DNA of 64,000 nucleotides from Arcobacter ellisii. GTDB lineage: Bacteria; Campylobacterota; Campylobacteria; Campylobacterales; Arcobacteraceae. Below the pieces are notes generated by a model. The model did no database searches. It was not told the DNA's origin and worked only from the letters and a program-made list of their open reading frames with translations. This document shows positions 43,399 to 64,000 of this stretch, in pieces; position 1 is the stretch's first letter, and the number at the start of each line of letters is the position of its first letter. Location: NCBI RefSeq assembly GCF_003544915.1, contig NZ_CP032097.1, forward strand, positions 1,178,001 through 1,242,000. Reading direction: 5' to 3'. Position numbers and translations under genes: made by a program.

Positions 43399-43677
43399 TT
43401 ATTTGATAATTAAATCAGCAATCTCGTTCATAGTTGCTTCTGTCATACCTTTAACTTGTCCAGCCATTAAAGCTTTTTGAGCTCCACCATAAGTTCCATC
43501 TTGGTAACCTTTTAATGCAGCAACAAAATCAGCTTTTGTCATATCTTTGATGATTTTTGATTTACCTAAAGCAACTTTTTCTCCATTAGCACCATGACAT
43601 GCAACACATTTAGCATAAGGGCTTGCAAATGCAACACTTGCAGTTAATAAAGATGCAGCGATAATTATTTTTTTCAT
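43399..43677 (-). CDS. Small class I c-type cytochrome
   Basis: A 92-residue periplasmic protein: signal peptide (about 1-18, ending VAFAS), haem site CVACH (near 24-28), HGANGEKVALGKS and a likely axial Met in the segment ALMAGQVKGMTEATM. It resembles the cytochrome c553 group that carries electrons to terminal oxidases or peroxidases in Campylobacterota. Monocistronic, with AAGGA upstream. Confidence 0.92.
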   Translation of the reverse strand: MKKIIIAASLLTASVAFASPYAKCVACHGANGEKVALGKSKIIKDMTKADFVAALKGYQDGTYGGAQKALMAGQVKGMTEATMNEIADLIIK

Positions 43678-43765
43678 GAATAATCCTTTTTTTTATAAGA
43701 TAAAGTAATTATATATAAATATTATTTAGAGTTTATTGACTTCCATCAAGTATTTTAAGAATTTT

Positions 43766-43796
43766 AAAAAGAATAATTAAAAATTATTCTTTTTAT
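43766..43796 (-). terminator. Terminator of the glutamate mutase operon
   Basis: On the minus strand AAAAAGAATAATT pairs with AATTATTCTTTTT around a short loop, with the T-run built in. It overlaps the end of the ligase gene at 43793. Confidence 0.85.
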
Positions 43797-45364
43797 TTAG
43801 AAATAAGCTCTTTTTTTAGCTCTTCTTTATTGATTTTATTTTTATCAGAAGGAACAAGTGGTAATGATTTTTTATAAATTATTTTAGAAGGAATCATATA
43901 TGAAGCTAAATGTTTTTTTAGTTCAAATAAAATTTCACTTGAACTTAATTCAGATTTTGCACTGTAAACTAAAACAATTTCTTCTTCAATCTCTTCATTT
44001 TCTATTGAAAATACTGCACATTTTTCTATATCTTTTAATTCTCTTTTAACAACAGATTCAATTTCATAAGGATTTACTCTATATCCTCTTGTTTTTATCA
44101 TGTCATCATGTCTTGAAACAAAATAGAAATATCCCTCTTCATCTTTATAAACATAATCTCCTGTTTGAACAACAATCTCATCTGTTAATTGCCCTTCAAG
44201 ATTAATTACATTTTTTAAAATTTGAATAGATTTGAATCTCTCTTTAGTCTCTTTTGGTGCATTCCAATAACCTTTATAGATATATCCACCTCTATGAATT
44301 AGTTCACCAACAACTCTTGGTGGACATTCATTTCCATTTTCATCAATAACATATAATTCAACATCAGGAATAGCTTTTCCAATAGAGTCTGGTCTTATTT
44401 TTAATTGACTTGGGTCTAAATAAGTTGATCTAAATGCTTCTGTTAATCCGTGCATTGAATAGAATTTTGCTTTTACAAAATATTTTTCAATATCTTTTAT
44501 CATTTTTGCTGTTACATTACCACCTGAAGATGCAATAATTCTAATATTTTCAAGTAAAGATGGATTTGGAAGTTTATACTCTTCTTCATCAAACATTTCA
44601 GTAATATTTATAGGCATTAAAGAGATTACAGATACTTTATCATTTATTAAATGGTTAAAGAAATCTGTTGGTAAAACAAATCTATGTAATGCTAAAGTTG
44701 CTCTTTTATATAAAGAACAGAAAATTTGATTTAATCCATAATCTAAATTAAAATATAATAATCCAGAAATTACATCATCCTCTTTTAATTGTAAATAAGA
44801 AGATACAACTCTTGCACTATCAATTAAATTTCTATGAGAAATTACAATTCCTTTTGGTTGTCCACCAAGACCAAAAGAGTAAGTAATAATTGCATTATCA
44901 TGTCCATTTATATTACAAACATAAGGTTTATTATAATATTTATAAATCTCTTCAAATGAAGGTAAATCTTTATTTGTAGTCTCATAAGAGATTATTTTTC
45001 CATTAAATTTAATCTCTTCAATTGATTCTATTTTAACTCTATCTGTAATAATACATTTAATATCACAATCACTAATTATATATTCAACTTGTTCAGGTTT
45101 TAGAAATTTTGTTAAAGGAACTAAAACATAATTAGTAGATAATGTAGCTAATATAGCGATTACTTGGTCTATTCCTTTGTTTGAATAAATCCCAATTCTA
45201 CTTCCTTTTGGTAAATCAAGTTCTGATAAATAAAGGGCAATTTGATTAACTTTTGTAAATAATTCTCCATAAGTTAATTTTTCATTTCCATATACTAATG
45301 CAACTTTTTGTGGATGAGAAATATTTGCATCTTCTATTAAAGTTCTAATACAATTTATTGACAT
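43793..45364 (-). CDS. Stand-alone AMP-forming adenylating enzyme, last gene of the glutamate mutase operon
   Basis: A 523-residue member of the acyl/aryl-CoA ligase and NRPS adenylation superfamily. The large domain has SMHGLTEAFRSTYL, then TGDYVYKDEEGYFYFVSRHDD and KTRGYRVNPYEIE, with a C-terminal lysine near SDKNKINKEEL. The phosphate-binding loop is altered: YSFGLGGQPKG where SGTTGxPKG is usual. There is no attached carrier or condensation domain. In vicenistatin biosynthesis a stand-alone enzyme (VinN) activates 3-methylaspartate made by a glutamate mutase; the same role is inferred here from the operon. Substrate and carrier are not proven. Confidence 0.85.
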   Translation of the reverse strand: MSINCIRTLIEDANISHPQKVALVYGNEKLTYGELFTKVNQIALYLSELDLPKGSRIGIYSNKGIDQVIAILATLSTNYVLVPLTKFLKPEQVEYIISDCDIKCIITDRVKIESIEEIKFNGKIISYETTNKDLPSFEEIYKYYNKPYVCNINGHDNAIITYSFGLGGQPKGIVISHRNLIDSARVVSSYLQLKEDDVISGLLYFNLDYGLNQIFCSLYKRATLALHRFVLPTDFFNHLINDKVSVISLMPINITEMFDEEEYKLPNPSLLENIRIIASSGGNVTAKMIKDIEKYFVKAKFYSMHGLTEAFRSTYLDPSQLKIRPDSIGKAIPDVELYVIDENGNECPPRVVGELIHRGGYIYKGYWNAPKETKERFKSIQILKNVINLEGQLTDEIVVQTGDYVYKDEEGYFYFVSRHDDMIKTRGYRVNPYEIESVVKRELKDIEKCAVFSIENEEIEEEIVLVYSAKSELSSSEILFELKKHLASYMIPSKIIYKKSLPLVPSDKNKINKEELKKELISK

Positions 45365-45376
45365 AATAGCCCCTTT

Positions 45377-46561
45377 TTATTGTTGAGTTATACCTAAAGT
45401 CCAAATATCATAGTCATAATCCATGATAATTGAAGGATAAATATCTGAATTTAAAATCTTTTTGTAGAAGAAAGAGATAATATCTGTTGCTTCATCAAAA
45501 GTTAAAACTTTAGTGATTCCACCTGTTAATACAATTGATTTTAGTAAATTTAACTTTAATTTTATATATAAAGGATGAGCATCACTTACTTTATATAAAA
45601 CTAGGAAAATCGCTAATTGCATTAAAACTCTTAAAGCTTTTGGAGAATCTTCATTAAAGATATTTTCTGTAACTTTTAAATGTGCTAATAATTCATAAAC
45701 AAACTCATTGTTTTTAGCTGCAAAAATTAAAGACTCTTTTGATTTATAAACACCTAGTTTTTTGAATACAAGTCTATCATACTCATTTTCAGTTACCATA
45801 TTATCCATAGATAAATCTTTTGAGTAGTGAATATCTGTTGTTGCTCCACCAATATCAATTAAAATAAATGGATTTACAACAGCAAATTTTGTATCAATTA
45901 ATGGAAGAGTTTTATTTACAATATATGGAGTTGAATAGATTTGATTAGAAGTTAAATCATAAAGATGTTTTATATCTTCTTTCCCCATAATATCAGCTTG
46001 ATAAAGGTTTGTTAAATACTCTTTTAATGGCTCTTCAACCACATGAAGTTTATTATTTATGATATTTTCTACAACAACTAAATTTTTTATATTTGAGTTT
46101 AAATATTCTGCATCTTGTGTTGTTCCTGCAAAAACCACATTTGAATAGTTTAAGTTTTGTAAGAAATTAAAAAGTTTTTCATCAAATACATTTGAAACAG
46201 AGTTAATTCCACCAACAATAATAACAACATCAATTAAGTCACTAGGAATTGAAGTTGTGTCTATATCTTGGTATAAAACCGTATTAATGATATTAATACC
46301 TGAATTATATGCAATATTTGTAGCAAATTTTAATGAAAAAGAGTTAGTAACACCAATAATAAGTGTTGTTAATCCACCATTTGCAGATGAACAGATAAAC
46401 ACTTCATCTTTTTTAAATTTAGAGATAGTTTCATTACATTTAGAAGTTAAATCATCAAAAATATTTTTGTTAAAATCTCTGAAATGTTGTTCTATATTTC
46501 CGTTGGCACAAACTTTAAAATATGTACTTCCAACATCTATTAATAATTTATTTTGGCTCAT
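45377..46561 (-). CDS. glmL: GlmL/MutL-like protein, putative glutamate mutase reactivase
   Basis: A 394-residue ASKHA-fold ATPase: DVGSTYFKVC at the start (phosphate 1), FILIDIGGATTDIHY (phosphate 2) and VLTGGITKVLTF. This matches MutL/GlmL, which accompanies glutamate mutase and is thought to repair or chaperone the B12 enzyme. It is shorter than the roughly 460 residues usual for the family. It overlaps the GlmE gene by 4 bp (ATGA), so translation is coupled. Confidence 0.9.
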   Translation of the reverse strand: MSQNKLLIDVGSTYFKVCANGNIEQHFRDFNKNIFDDLTSKCNETISKFKKDEVFICSSANGGLTTLIIGVTNSFSLKFATNIAYNSGINIINTVLYQDIDTTSIPSDLIDVVIIVGGINSVSNVFDEKLFNFLQNLNYSNVVFAGTTQDAEYLNSNIKNLVVVENIINNKLHVVEEPLKEYLTNLYQADIMGKEDIKHLYDLTSNQIYSTPYIVNKTLPLIDTKFAVVNPFILIDIGGATTDIHYSKDLSMDNMVTENEYDRLVFKKLGVYKSKESLIFAAKNNEFVYELLAHLKVTENIFNEDSPKALRVLMQLAIFLVLYKVSDAHPLYIKLKLNLLKSIVLTGGITKVLTFDEATDIISFFYKKILNSDIYPSIIMDYDYDIWTLGITQQ

Positions 46562-47922
46562 TGCATAATTCCTATATCATGGATAATATCATTTACAATT
46601 GAAGAAGCGTCTTTGTTTAAGTCACATTTTGATTTTTCATATTCAAAACATCTATCACTAATTGGAAGATTTCCTCTTTTTATGATTCTAATATTTTTAT
46701 TTTTATCTCTAACTGTTACAACTTCATTGTGATTTATAATATGTGGAGAGTATGGAACATCAATAATTCCAGCTTTTATACAGTTAAATACCTTTCTCCA
46801 TAAAGTGTCAGCTTTATCATTAAACACAGCTTCCATAATACTTTTTACTTCTTCTGTTAGGATTTCTTCTTCCATCTCATCAGTAATTGTAGGAATTCCA
46901 TGTAACATTCCTAAAGTATATTGAGTATTTGCAACTGTTTTTGCATTTGATTCACGTGTTGGAATACCAAAAGACTCATCTCTTGTTTTTGTAATAATTT
47001 TATCAGCTTTTACCATCATAGCAATAACTGTTGAAGTGTTAATTAATGATTCTGAATAATCTTTATTTGAAGGGAAAGCACCCATCCATTGATGATAAAC
47101 TAGATTTATTCTTGCATCTGCACATCCAATCTGTTCTGCATAATGTTTTGCCATTTTTCTTAAAACATTAGCTGTTACAATATCTTGAATCATTGAACCA
47201 GTTTGTGAGAATGATACAGAGAAAGATTTTACTCCCTCTTCAAGTGATAAAAGCATTTCACAAAGTTGAATAACTATTGTAATACAAGGTGGAACTAATG
47301 TTGCAGTTAATGGACCAAAAGATTCTCTATTTATTGGTTCATTTAATTTTGAGTAGTTTGCACAAATTTTTTCTACATATTTCCAATACATAAAGGCTTT
47401 ATCAAGTGGAAAGTTTTTTGAATATGGTAAAAGATAAGTAATTGGACCACCTTCAATTTCAAAAATACCAGAAGCTAAAGCAGTTTCTATTAAAAGTCTA
47501 GCATCAGGAGTTCCGTGTCTTAGAGAAATTGGTTTATCAAAATGAGTCATCATTTTTCTAGTTGTTCTATATCCATGATTTACAAGTGGATAACCATTTA
47601 ACATATCAACTTCATTCTCTTCACTAAGTTTTAGCATTTTTGCACTTGTTGCATAGTCGTTTAATCTTGTATTTGAATCAATTGTACAAGGTAATACATC
47701 AACATTTGCACCAACAAAATATTCATATAATGAGAACATTTTTTTATAAGTTGGAAATCCACCTCTTGGTTGAACTAACATTTTATTAGAATTTTTAAAG
47801 TGGTGAGAAATAAATAGATTTTTTGAAGCATTTTTTATAAACTCTTCAATCTCTGCAAAGTCAAAATTATCTGCATATTTATTTTGAACAATTATGTTTC
47901 TTTCTTCTTGCAGTAAACTCAA
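46558..47922 (-). CDS. glmE: Glutamate mutase epsilon (catalytic) subunit
   Basis: A 454-residue TIM-barrel enzyme. The family's stretches are clear: PRGGFPTYKKM, NGYPLVNHGYRTTRKM, LRHGTPDARLLIETALASG, EGGPITYLLPY and NLVYHQWMGAFPSN. The conserved arginines that hold the substrate carboxylates have counterparts here, so catalysis looks intact. With the S subunit and adenosylcobalamin it interconverts L-glutamate and (2S,3S)-3-methylaspartate. No methylaspartase, mesaconase or citramalate genes adjoin, unlike the fermentative pathway. It overlaps GlmS by 4 bp. Confidence 0.95.
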   Translation of the reverse strand: MSLLQEERNIIVQNKYADNFDFAEIEEFIKNASKNLFISHHFKNSNKMLVQPRGGFPTYKKMFSLYEYFVGANVDVLPCTIDSNTRLNDYATSAKMLKLSEENEVDMLNGYPLVNHGYRTTRKMMTHFDKPISLRHGTPDARLLIETALASGIFEIEGGPITYLLPYSKNFPLDKAFMYWKYVEKICANYSKLNEPINRESFGPLTATLVPPCITIVIQLCEMLLSLEEGVKSFSVSFSQTGSMIQDIVTANVLRKMAKHYAEQIGCADARINLVYHQWMGAFPSNKDYSESLINTSTVIAMMVKADKIITKTRDESFGIPTRESNAKTVANTQYTLGMLHGIPTITDEMEEEILTEEVKSIMEAVFNDKADTLWRKVFNCIKAGIIDVPYSPHIINHNEVVTVRDKNKNIRIIKRGNLPISDRCFEYEKSKCDLNKDASSIVNDIIHDIGIMQ

Positions 47923-48326
47923 TTTCTCTCCTTTAAAAATCTTTCTAATTCGTCAAGTCCAGTATTTAAGTCAACTTGATGAAATACTAAATCAAAACCA
48001 TAGTTTTTGAATTTTGGCACAATAACACTTGCATCACCTTCACCAACTGCTAAGTTTCCACCTAACATAAATACAACATCTTTTAAGTTCTTATATTTTG
48101 ATTTTAAAATAGGTAAGTCTCTACACCAACCTTCTGCTTCACCATTTAATGAAGAGATTAATAAAACATCAGCATTTGTTTCAATAACTGCATCTATAAA
48201 CTCTTCTAGGTATGTATTAACACCAAGATTAAAAACTTCAAACCCTCTTGCTTGTAGTGATATATCAATTAGTCGATTTGCAACTACGTGAATATCATTA
48301 CCTACTACTCCAATAACTACTTTCAT
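47919..48326 (-). CDS. glmS: Glutamate mutase sigma subunit (B12-binding)
   Basis: A 135-residue Rossmann-like B12 domain. The cobalamin motif is GNDIHVVANRL: Asp and His are kept, but the usual Gly three residues after His is Ala. LLISSLNGEAEG and FMLGGNL supply the other conserved parts. It heads the operon S-E-L-ligase. GlmS here means glutamate mutase, not glucosamine-6-phosphate synthase. The 92 bp upstream are too short for a standard cobalamin riboswitch. Confidence 0.93.
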   Translation of the reverse strand: MKVVIGVVGNDIHVVANRLIDISLQARGFEVFNLGVNTYLEEFIDAVIETNADVLLISSLNGEAEGWCRDLPILKSKYKNLKDVVFMLGGNLAVGEGDASVIVPKFKNYGFDLVFHQVDLNTGLDELERFLKERN

Positions 48327-60975: not shown

Positions 60976-61203
60976 ATGGAAATTCTTGAAAGAATTAGGC
61001 CTTTAGTTGAAGAGATAGCTTTTAAAAAAGTTACAGATGATGAAGCATTATATACATCTAATTTAATAGATAGTATGGGTACAGTTGATTTGGCTATGAT
61101 GTTAGAAGAAGAGTTTAATATCAAAATAGATACAAGAGATATTATAGAGAGTAATTTTGATAGTATTGATAAATTAGCAAATTATATAAAAAGTAGAATT
61201 TAG
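60976..61203 (+). CDS. dltC: DltC-like D-alanyl carrier protein
   Basis: A 75-residue acyl carrier protein with the phosphopantetheine Ser in NLIDSMGTVDLAMMLEEEF (near 37), matching DltC's DSxGTVxL form. It would accept D-alanine (or another amino acid) from the ligase encoded at 63605 and deliver it to the membrane. It is the first gene of the operon and ends 1 bp into dltD. Confidence 0.92.
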   Translation: MEILERIRPLVEEIAFKKVTDDEALYTSNLIDSMGTVDLAMMLEEEFNIKIDTRDIIESNFDSIDKLANYIKSRI

Positions 61204-62321
61204 TGAATAAATTTTTTATAAATGTTTTTGCTTTACTTATTTCAACTTTTATAGTTGGAATAGGAGTTTTTTTATTTAAGAATGAAATTTTAAATTATTA
61301 TGATAAATCTTTAGAATCACTAAAAAAAACAAATGAGTTACAAAGTGATTTAGAGAGTGGAAAAATTGTTGTTTTTGGCTCATCTGAATTATTAAATAGT
61401 AACCAAAAATTTATTCCTCAAAATTATTTTAACAATGATTTAAAACTTCCTTTGAGAGTTCAAGGAAATGAAGGACATCAAGAGTTTGTAATACTTTCTC
61501 AATTAGCTGCATTAGAAAATGAAAAAGTAAAAGAAAATGCAAAAGTTGTAATACTTTTATCTCCAAGTTGGTTTACTGGAAATAGTGATAATGGTACAAA
61601 AATTCCAAAATTTTTAGAATATATGTATCCAGGAATGATGAATAAGCTCTATTTTCAAAGTAGTGTAGATGATAAATTTAAGATTTTAATAAATGAATAC
61701 GTAAGAAAAAATTTTAACCTTATAAAAGAACCAGGTTATATTTATACTCATACTTTTGAAGAATTTAAAGAAAATTATTTTGATAATCAAATAAAAAAAT
61801 TCATAATCAATGTTTATGAGAACAGAAATAAAATATCTCAAACAGTAAGTTATCAAAAACCAAAATTTGATTATGAAGCTTTAAAAATTGAAGCTAAAAA
61901 TTTTGAATTACCTTCAAACAATAATAGTTTTGGAATAAATAATGATAATTATACAAAATTTATAGAGCCAACTGTAAATAAAGAGTATTTCCCATTTACT
62001 ATAATTTTGCCTAAAATTGAAGAAAATCAAGAGTATAAAGATTTTTTACTTTTATTAGAATTATTACAAAACTATAAAATAAAACCACTTTTTATTATGC
62101 AAGACTTAAATCCTTATATTTTTGCTAAAAATAGGGAAGAGATGAATATTTTGGTCTCTTTAATAAAATCAAAAGTTGAAGAAAAAGGTTTTGAATATTT
62201 TGATATGTGGTCTTATAAAAAAGAGGATTATGAGTTTGGAGTTCTAACAGATTCAGTTCATCTTGGAGAATTAGGTTGGGTAAAAGTTAACCAAAAAATA
62301 ATTGAACATTTTATGCAATAA
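61203..62321 (+). CDS. dltD: DltD-like protein
   Basis: A 372-residue protein with an N-terminal membrane anchor (about 5-25) and an SGNH-hydrolase-like extracytoplasmic domain: VVFGSSELLNS (nucleophile Ser), SPSWF and TDSVHLGELGWVKV (Asp and His of the catalytic site). DltD completes D-alanyl transfer on the outer side of the membrane in Gram-positives. Here it would face the periplasm. The start codon is GTG, overlapping the dltC stop. Confidence 0.92.
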   Translation: MNKFFINVFALLISTFIVGIGVFLFKNEILNYYDKSLESLKKTNELQSDLESGKIVVFGSSELLNSNQKFIPQNYFNNDLKLPLRVQGNEGHQEFVILSQLAALENEKVKENAKVVILLSPSWFTGNSDNGTKIPKFLEYMYPGMMNKLYFQSSVDDKFKILINEYVRKNFNLIKEPGYIYTHTFEEFKENYFDNQIKKFIINVYENRNKISQTVSYQKPKFDYEALKIEAKNFELPSNNNSFGINNDNYTKFIEPTVNKEYFPFTIILPKIEENQEYKDFLLLLELLQNYKIKPLFIMQDLNPYIFAKNREEMNILVSLIKSKVEEKGFEYFDMWSYKKEDYEFGVLTDSVHLGELGWVKVNQKIIEHFMQ

Positions 62322-62331
62322 GGGAATTTAA

Positions 62332-62472
62332 TTGGGATATTTCTTCAAAAATTTTGTAATCTATTTTTTATTGATAATAGGAATACTTTTTATATCAATA
62401 GATAAAAATATTAGTGATTTAAACGGAAAAGATACAGATTCAGAAGTAGAATTTGTATATGAGGAATTTTAA
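62332..62472 (+). CDS. dltX: DltX-like small membrane peptide
   Basis: TTG at 62332, with AAGGGAA 7 bp upstream, opens a 46-residue frame ending at TAA 62470-62472, whose last A is the first base of dltB's ATG. The product has one membrane helix (about 9-23) and ends in VEFVYEEF. A C-terminal F-x-Y-x-x-F motif is the hallmark of DltX in Gram-positive dlt operons, where its Tyr is proposed to carry the alanyl group. Position between dltD and dltB supports the call. Confidence 0.82.
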   Translation: MGYFFKNFVIYFLLIIGILFISIDKNISDLNGKDTDSEVEFVYEEF

Positions 62473-63608
62473 TGGAGAGTTTTTTACCTTTCTCTGGAAT
62501 AGGTTTTTTTATAATAAGTTTCATTTTTGTTATATTTTTACATCTATTTAAAAATATTTTAAATAAATTTGTTTCATATAAAATAGTTATGTTTTTAGCT
62601 GTTGTTATTTATATATATTTTTGTGTTCCTGAATCTTATGAACTTTTTATATTACTTTTGTATGTTTATATAATTTATACAATTTTTGTATCAAACAATT
62701 ATCAAGAAACGATTTTTCCTATGATTGTAATTGCATTTCCTATGATTTTACATAAATTGGAAATAGACCCAATTTTTAAGATTATAGGAATTTCATATAT
62801 AACTTTTAGAACTATACAAGCAATTGTTGATAGTCATAACTATGGAAAACTCTCTTTTATGGAGTTTACATCTTTTTTACTTTTTCCAACAACACTTCTT
62901 GCAGGACCAATTGATAGGTCATATAGATTTCAAGAAGATTTAAAAAAAGGGTATGAAAATTTAACCTTATCAAATATTGGTAAAGGTTGGGATATTTTAG
63001 TTATTGGTGTTTTATTTAAGTTTGTAATTGCTGAATTAGTAGCTATGTTTTGGTTATCAAAAATAGATGAAAATAGTACAAACTTAATTGATATGATAAA
63101 TAGTGCATATTCATATACAACATATCTATTTTTTGATTTTGCTGGATACAGTGCGATGGCAGTAGGTTTGAGTTATATGATTGGAATTTTTACACCAATG
63201 AATTTTAATCATCCATATTTAGCACCAAATCCACAAGATTTTTGGAGAAGATTTCATATTACTTTAGGAACTTGGTTAACAGATTATTTCTTTAAACCTT
63301 TATATAAATATTTACATAAATTTAAGTATTTAAAAAATAGAAAATTACTTATTCAAAATATCGCAATTATTTGCACTTTTTTACTTATGGGAATGTGGAA
63401 TGGTTTAACTTGGTATTTTATATTTAGTGGATTTTTATTTGGAATTTATTCAAGTATTCATAATGCTTATGTTTTATATGTAAAAAAGGGTGGATATGAT
63501 TATTTTACATTTTTTCCTGAAATAATTAGTATTAATTTAAAAAGATTTTTGATGATAAATGCTGCTGTTTTTGCTTTATATTTTTTTAGTGGAAGGGTTC
63601 CTTTATGA
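62472..63608 (+). CDS. dltB: DltB-like MBOAT membrane acyltransferase
   Basis: A 378-residue multi-pass protein with MBOAT landmarks: LFPTTLLAGPIDRSYRFQED, YTTYLFFDFAGYSAMAVGLSY, NFNHPYLAPNPQDFWRRFHITLGTWLTDYFF and MGMWNGLTWYFI. In most relatives the last reads WHG, and a second His lies in the final helix before FSG; here both positions appear to be Asn (WNG; LMINAAVFALYFFSG). It would move the alanyl group across the membrane with DltC. It overlaps its neighbours on both sides. Confidence 0.9.
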   Translation: MESFLPFSGIGFFIISFIFVIFLHLFKNILNKFVSYKIVMFLAVVIYIYFCVPESYELFILLLYVYIIYTIFVSNNYQETIFPMIVIAFPMILHKLEIDPIFKIIGISYITFRTIQAIVDSHNYGKLSFMEFTSFLLFPTTLLAGPIDRSYRFQEDLKKGYENLTLSNIGKGWDILVIGVLFKFVIAELVAMFWLSKIDENSTNLIDMINSAYSYTTYLFFDFAGYSAMAVGLSYMIGIFTPMNFNHPYLAPNPQDFWRRFHITLGTWLTDYFFKPLYKYLHKFKYLKNRKLLIQNIAIICTFLLMGMWNGLTWYFIFSGFLFGIYSSIHNAYVLYVKKGGYDYFTFFPEIISINLKRFLMINAAVFALYFFSGRVPL

Positions 63609-64000
63609 GATTTGATTTAGAGATTTTAGATTTTCTTGAGTGTGATAAAGATATTCAAAAGTTAGCTGTTTGTGGGAGTAATAAAGATTTAACTTGGATT
63701 GAATTTAAAAAAGAGGTTGAACTTTTAAAAAATGAACTTTTAAAATATAATCTTCCTAAAGGTCATCCTATAATTATTTATGGACATAAAGAAGTTGAAT
63801 TTATTGTAAGTATGGTTGCTTGTATGAGTTTAGGTTATCCATACATTCCAATTGATACAATTTATCCAAAACAAAGAGTTGAAAAAATAAAAAATATAGT
63901 TAACTCTTCAATTGTAATTGATACAACAATAAATGAAATAGAGTTTAATAAAGAAAATATAAATACAAACTATTTTTTAGATGATCAAATCATTTATATT
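63605..64000 (+). CDS. dltA: DltA-like D-alanine-carrier protein ligase, N-terminal part (cut by window edge)
   Basis: ATG at 63605 overlaps the dltB stop by 4 bp and the frame is open to the end of the window. The 132 visible residues match the start of adenylating enzymes (LTWIEFKKEVELLKNEL; IIIYGHKEVEFIVSMVACMSLGYPYIPIDTIYPKQRVEKI), including the G-Y-x-Y-I-P-I-D-x-x-P segment typical of DltA. Its catalytic motifs lie outside the window, so the amino-acid choice cannot be read. Confidence 0.88.
   Translation, partial: MRFDLEILDFLECDKDIQKLAVCGSNKDLTWIEFKKEVELLKNELLKYNLPKGHPIIIYGHKEVEFIVSMVACMSLGYPYIPIDTIYPKQRVEKIKNIVNSSIVIDTTINEIEFNKENINTNYFLDDQIIYI

Follow-up and report, generated by a model that had tools for sequence, protein, structure and literature searches.

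What does a glutamate mutase serve when its genes are coupled to that of an ANL (AMP-ligase-like) protein and the usual downstream genes are lacking? This question is raised by a four-gene unit in a 64,000-nucleotide stretch of the Arcobacter ellisii genome (hereafter, the window; C1:1178001-1242000 of the one-contig, 2.8-Mb source genome, G000). The unit encodes GlmS, GlmE, a GlmL-type ATPase, and a stand-alone ANL protein, referred to here as the ligase. It is best called a VinN-like mutase-ligase module that is spread over Campylobacterota without the usual downstream genes. At the sequence level, the coupling of a non-fermentative glutamate mutase to an ANL protein specific for 3-methylaspartate is well supported. 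The features of the unit are as follows.

47919-48326, minus strand: glmS, cobalamin-binding subunit of glutamate mutase (135 aa; Pfam B12-binding, NF002612)
46558-47922, minus strand: glmE, catalytic subunit of glutamate mutase (454 aa, TTG start; Pfam PF06368)
45377-46561, minus strand: short GlmL-type ATPase, probable mutase reactivase (394 aa; Pfam MutL)
43793-45364, minus strand: stand-alone ANL protein, its amino-acid pocket VinN-like and its phosphate loop remodelled (523 aa; Pfam AMP-binding, VinN alignment)
43765-43795, minus strand: AT-rich hairpin resembling a terminator, 3' of the ligase gene (RNA fold)

The four minus-strand open reading frames (ORFs) all scored above the Pfam cut-offs (B12-binding, 47.5; Met_asp_mut_E, 386.9; MutL, 103.2; AMP-binding, 203 bits). 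Moreover, the order glmS-glmE-glmL-ligase on one strand was kept in 69 of the 72 loci fetched from a subset of the GlmE-positive genomes, 40 of them from the same family and 32 from other families. Because 69 loci keep all four genes in this way, the unit reflects more than chance, and its description as a single unit in the original prediction was borne out. The exceptions were L044, which lacked the ligase, and two loci at contig ends, L070 without GlmS and L117 without GlmL and the ligase. Within the 69, L050 has 2.3 kb ahead of the ligase gene and L098 about 4.5 kb ahead of that for GlmL. In one locus, a 359-residue ORF was observed between GlmE and GlmL (L107:8331-9410).

The 4-bp overlaps claimed previously were confirmed at two of the three junctions (glmS/glmE and glmE/glmL, -4 bp each), but the third is a 12-bp gap between glmL and the ligase gene. 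Similarly, the claimed terminator was recovered as a hairpin with a 14-bp AT-rich stem 3' of the ligase gene (about 43795-43765; -10 kcal/mol; z of -2.68, equalled by 3 of 200 shuffles), although it was absent from the output of a GC-based terminator scan. No cobalamin riboswitch was found in the 601 bases before glmS, where the sole Rfam match was a small nucleolar RNA far below the gathering score.

The spread of the unit was determined in two overlapping samples, 104 genomes of the family and 397 genomes from 68 genera of the phylum. GlmE (PF06368) was present in 60 of the family genomes and in 57 of the 397 phylum genomes, the latter representing 20 genera and several families. With presence called at an E value of at most 1e-100, the ligase was found in 57 family genomes, all 57 of which were GlmE-positive. 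Three GlmE-positive family genomes had no ligase, and in two of these (G042 and G073) GlmE is a fragment. The unit was also located on contigs named Sulfurospirillum, Hydrogenimonas, and Nitratifractor. It is not peculiar to the source species but occurs in several families of the phylum, and the conserved neighbourhood that had been proposed as a check in relatives was found. Among the papers listed by searches of open-licence PubMed Central, none describes the unit in its title or abstract opening.

The mutase was evaluated with 71 GlmE and 72 GlmS sequences, and its predicted active site is intact. In GlmE, Y181, K326, and E330 (Clostridium cochlearium numbering), which we take to be sites of the C. 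cochlearium enzyme, were found in 71/71 sequences. So were the arginine claw (R66, R100, and R149), E171, and Y177, the roles of which are covered in the relevant part of PMC10947579. In the case of GlmS, NF002612 was matched above its cut-off (164.3 against 110 bits) and TIGR01501 below it (101.6 against 135.8 bits). The motif reads DIHVVA where DxHxxG is expected: Asp11 and the cobalt-binding His13 were present in 72/72 sequences, and the glycine was replaced with Ala16 in all 72. The GlmL proteins are short, at 389-403 aa counted from the start of the match, and their DxGST and DIGGATTD ATPase motifs were found in 71/71 sequences. Hydantoinase PF01968 had no match in the source genome. In a tree of 25 GlmE sequences, those of Campylobacterota and Actinokineospora were split from the methylaspartase-linked, the nonribosomal peptide synthetase (NRPS)-linked, and the Streptomyces/Methylobacter types with a support of 0.992.

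The pocket of the ligase was compared with that of VinN. According to the part of the review PMC11253843 that deals with VinN, the VinN pocket comprises D230, F231, S299, and K330-R331 with a short beta13-beta14 loop. When residues 150-335 of the ligase were used as the query, VinN (3wv4) was third in the PDB list. The alignment contained two short gaps, both between residues 249 and 270, with none around D208-Y209, and it was gap-free from S280 across the beta13-beta14 loop to residue 333. Using a 16-residue offset derived from the chain positions in the alignment, ligase D208, Y209, S280, and R312 align with VinN D230, F231, S299, and R331. Thus, D230, S299, and R331 are matched, and F231 is Tyr in the ligase. 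Each of the four residues was found in 71/71 Campylobacterota ligases and in both Actinokineospora ligases described below, and the full set occurred in none of eight comparison ANL sequences. The predicted likeness to the VinN pocket therefore held at four of the five positions and across the loop, but not at K330.

The four genes, their conservation together, the intact mutase site, and the VinN-like pocket are thus established by sequence, whereas the substrate, the activation step, the acceptor, the part played by a neighbouring RraA-family protein, and the end product are inferred. GlmS and GlmE would form an adenosylcobalamin-dependent glutamate mutase that converts L-glutamate to (2S,3S)-3-methylaspartate, and the GlmL-type ATPase would keep the mutase active. 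Like VinN, the ligase would bind 3-methylaspartate in the manner of a beta-amino acid; it would then activate the beta-carboxylate of this compound, to be passed on to an acceptor encoded away from the unit. Coenzyme A (CoA), the housekeeping carrier AcpP, and small nucleophiles, ammonia among them, are candidate acceptors. A metal aldolase/decarboxylase of the RraA type probably participates as well in many relatives. As a whole, this explanation, running from the mutase to a VinN-like ligase, is considered moderately likely. It is also directly testable, as the unit kept across several Campylobacterota families offers one mutase, one ligase, and one candidate substrate.

The known roles of the separate parts provide the simplest alternatives. 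It is highly improbable that the unit is an ordinary catabolic glutamate mutase of the methylaspartate pathway with its lyase elsewhere in the genome. The GlmE active site is indeed that of the catabolic enzymes, its catalytic residues being those of C. cochlearium GlmE. However, in the catabolic operons of Prevotella, Gemmobacter, Peptoclostridium, Rhizobium, and E. coli, methylaspartase lies directly 3' of GlmE in all five cases, the order being S-L-E in four and S-E in the fifth, whereas here it is S-E-L-ligase; in Peptoclostridium, an adenosyltransferase gene also adjoins. The GlmE of the unit belongs to a different branch of the tree, and no match to methylaspartase PF07476 was found in the source genome with working controls (11 of 14 control genomes matched, 2 above the cut-off). 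This absence, which agrees with what had been noted for methylaspartase near the unit, weakens the catabolic pathway as a candidate. PF05034 was matched in none of the 104 family genomes, but it also had no control match, so that this search shows little alone. An equally small chance is given to the fourth gene being merely cotranscribed and encoding an ordinary CoA ligase for fatty or aryl acids. Many acyl-CoA ligases do appear among the weaker NCBIfam matches, the best model being TIGR03098 (424.5 bits, below the cut-off of 592.35). Nevertheless, the ligase never occurs without GlmE in the 104 genomes, and Asp208, the amino-group-binding position in VinN and GrsA, is invariant (71/71); in three stand-alone AMP-ligase ORFs taken for comparison, the residues at this position are Val, Ala, and Ser. 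A further alternative, which is regarded as quite unlikely, is that the mutase leads to 2-oxobutyrate: 3-methylaspartate would be transaminated to 3-methyloxaloacetate, RraA would decarboxylate this to a precursor of isoleucine or propionyl-CoA, and the ligase would be a side branch. This route draws on an RraA-family gene that was found in 50 of the 72 loci (23 of 40 in the family and 27 of 32 in other families), always divergent to glmS and 26 bp to 7.2 kb distant; all 50 products carry the Arg-Asp pair, and the family assignment was run on three of them. Strong RraA matches were found in 58 of 60 GlmE-positive but in only 10 of 44 GlmE-negative family genomes (Fisher p of 4e-16), weak matches in G005 and G040 being scored as absent. 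According to PMC5065237, most homologues with the metal motif are likely class II pyruvate aldolases, and the 4-hydroxy-4-methyl-2-oxoglutarate/4-carboxy-4-hydroxy-2-oxoadipate (HMG/CHA) aldolase, which has this fold, acts on oxaloacetate as a decarboxylase as well. However, the co-occurrence is inflated by shared descent and genome size, as, among genus genomes at least 90% complete, the mean size was 2.73 Mb for those that have the unit and 2.17 Mb for the rest, and both RraA copies of the source genome lie away from the unit. The strictly linked ligase would also be left unexplained. Moreover, threonine dehydratase (TIGR01127, IlvA) was above the cut-off in 100 of the 104 family genomes, so no isoleucine bypass is needed, which weakens such a bypass as the main role.

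Several results weigh against the proposed mutase-to-ligase explanation itself. Residue F311 of the ligase sits at VinN K330, and with the full-length ligase as the query, VinN was only 23rd in the PDB list, after NRPS adenylation domains and malonyl-CoA synthetases. The phosphate loop sequence is YSFG, and 70/71 ligases have Phe164 where VinN, both Actinokineospora ligases, the Sinorhizobium meliloti ligase described below, and all eight comparison sequences have Ser. The match of GlmE to TIGR01503 was under the cut-off (373.2 against 390.1 bits), and that of GlmL to NF040745 was far under it (81.5 against 475 bits). One GlmE-positive family genome, G052, lacks the ligase. Corrinoid adenosyltransferases (PF02572 and PF01923) were found in none of the 104 family genomes, 60 of which have the mutase, while 7 and 9 of 14 control genomes matched. 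In addition, carriers did not track with the unit: PP-binding matches averaged 2.07 in the 14 genus genomes that have the unit and 2.41 in the 17 that lack it (p of 0.85), carriers below the E 0.001 limit being missed in such counts. As the phosphate loop is altered, ordinary adenylation by the ligase itself is in question, and the protein may not use adenosine triphosphate (ATP) in the usual way. It is thus conceivable, though unlikely, that it is no longer an ATP-dependent ligase but a 3-methylaspartate-binding partner of the mutase (a product sink or regulator) or a protein with other chemistry in its pocket. The invariant pocket residues fit this possibility as well, and besides Phe164, residue 166 is hydrophobic in 54 of the 69 sequences with that residue listed, and 24 of 71 sequences have Arg or Asn instead of Lys171. 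On the other hand, Glu309, Asp403, Arg418, and Lys424 were kept in 71/71 sequences and in both Actinokineospora ligases, and in most sequences a Lys occupies the A10 position or adjoins it; these features suggest retention of nucleotide chemistry. Loss of the A10 lysine is not claimed: residue 510 is neither Lys nor Arg in 12 of 71 sequences (one of them a gap), yet a Lys lies one or two residues off in several. An AlphaFold model of the ligase built from 4 sequences had a mean predicted local distance difference test (pLDDT) score of 46.5. There is also a slim chance that the ANL protein makes no free acyl-AMP but keeps the 3-methylaspartate pocket with a rebuilt phosphate loop, for example, for supplying, exchanging, or gating the cofactor of the mutase. 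If true, a cofactor-handling ANL protein would account for an adenosylcobalamin enzyme without a recognised adenosyltransferase. Given the lack of a recognised adenosyltransferase in the family genomes, it may be asked where these bacteria get their adenosylcobalamin, which would be either imported ready-made or produced by an unrecognised enzyme.

Returning to the mutase and its VinN-like ligase, the core idea of the original prediction was largely supported, as the unit appears non-catabolic and its ligase has a VinN-like pocket; the suggested acceptor and product were not. Loading on a dedicated carrier, in particular, has so far found no backing. The source genome has two PP-binding matches, at C1:2483297, presumably AcpP, and at 61066-61188 of the window, next to the DltD- and DltB-like ORFs described below, and neither is functionally close to the unit.

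The closest known logic is that of vicenistatin biosynthesis, in which, as far as PMC11284099 covers it, VinN, VinO, and VinL act as ligase, decarboxylase, and carrier. The likeness to VinH/VinI (mutase), VinN, VinL, and VinO lies in the linkage of a glutamate mutase to a stand-alone ligase. In contrast to vicenistatin, the unit includes a GlmL gene, no carrier or decarboxylase tracks with it, and it is not part of a polyketide cluster; moreover, its ligase differs from VinN in the Phe at K330 and the Phe in the phosphate loop. No VinO-type decarboxylase was seen by eye in the recurring neighbour clusters, TIGR03099 itself not having been searched in these genomes.

A related arrangement was found in Actinokineospora with a GC-rich pattern of the GlmS motif, which misses GC-poor genomes and other codons and says nothing on absence elsewhere. 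The pattern returned six stretches, four from Campylobacterota and two from Actinokineospora. In A. auranticolor and A. bangkokensis, the best match to the window's ligase (of 67 and 77, respectively) lies in a GlmS-E-L cluster. These clusters share the GlmS motif DIHVVAN, GlmE 40-43% identical, a short GlmL, and identical ligase pocket motifs; unlike the Campylobacterota ligases, theirs have a normal phosphate loop, and GlmL and the ligase are separated by an acetyltransferase gene and, on the opposite strand, an ATP-grasp gene. Genes for a pyridoxal phosphate (PLP) decarboxylase, a radical S-adenosylmethionine (SAM) enzyme, an exporter, and a cytochrome P450 are nearby. In A. bangkokensis, Pfam confirmed the PLP decarboxylase, the radical SAM enzyme, two ATP-grasp proteins, a major facilitator superfamily (MFS) exporter, the P450, and, some 5 kb further along, a PP-binding protein; the decarboxylase is nearest to TIGR03099 (219 bits, under the cut-off). 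By analogy, ligase, decarboxylase, and PP-binding protein together follow the VinN-VinO-VinL logic. We know of no product of these clusters, which represent a second, independent setting for a possible 3-methylaspartate-derived product. The exosortase-A-associated TIGR03098 ligase on pSymB of S. meliloti is about 36% identical to the window's ligase and has the motif GLTEAFRST in common with it. Its system has a TIGR03099 decarboxylase and a carrier but no mutase, and its pocket reads D, A, T, R, with Ala at 209 and Thr at 280.

The presence of a VinN homologue next to the plasmid-borne mutases of Streptomyces and Methylobacter was considered but rejected, since the seven loci compared yielded nothing other than NRPS-type matches and the ligase of S. 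meliloti. The mutase genes of Methylobacter and Streptomyces sp. NBC_00829 (L127 and L133) adjoin a gene annotated as asparagine synthetase A, so that 3-methylaspartate may be amidated in these bacteria.

The flanks of the unit vary, with two recurring neighbours, the RraA gene and a cytochrome c gene cluster. Counting the window, 35 of 41 family loci have the latter, which in most cases sits just downstream of the unit in the same orientation; in the window, a small cytochrome c gene (43399-43677) comes after the unit. At 60976-64000 of the window, a Dlt-like set was observed in this Gram-negative bacterium. It comprises a carrier protein (60976-61203), a DltD-like protein (61203-62321; 105.9 bits) and a DltB-like protein (62472-63608; 235.7 bits), both under their cut-offs, and a further ORF (at 63605), truncated where the window stops, that resembles an adenylating enzyme by eye.

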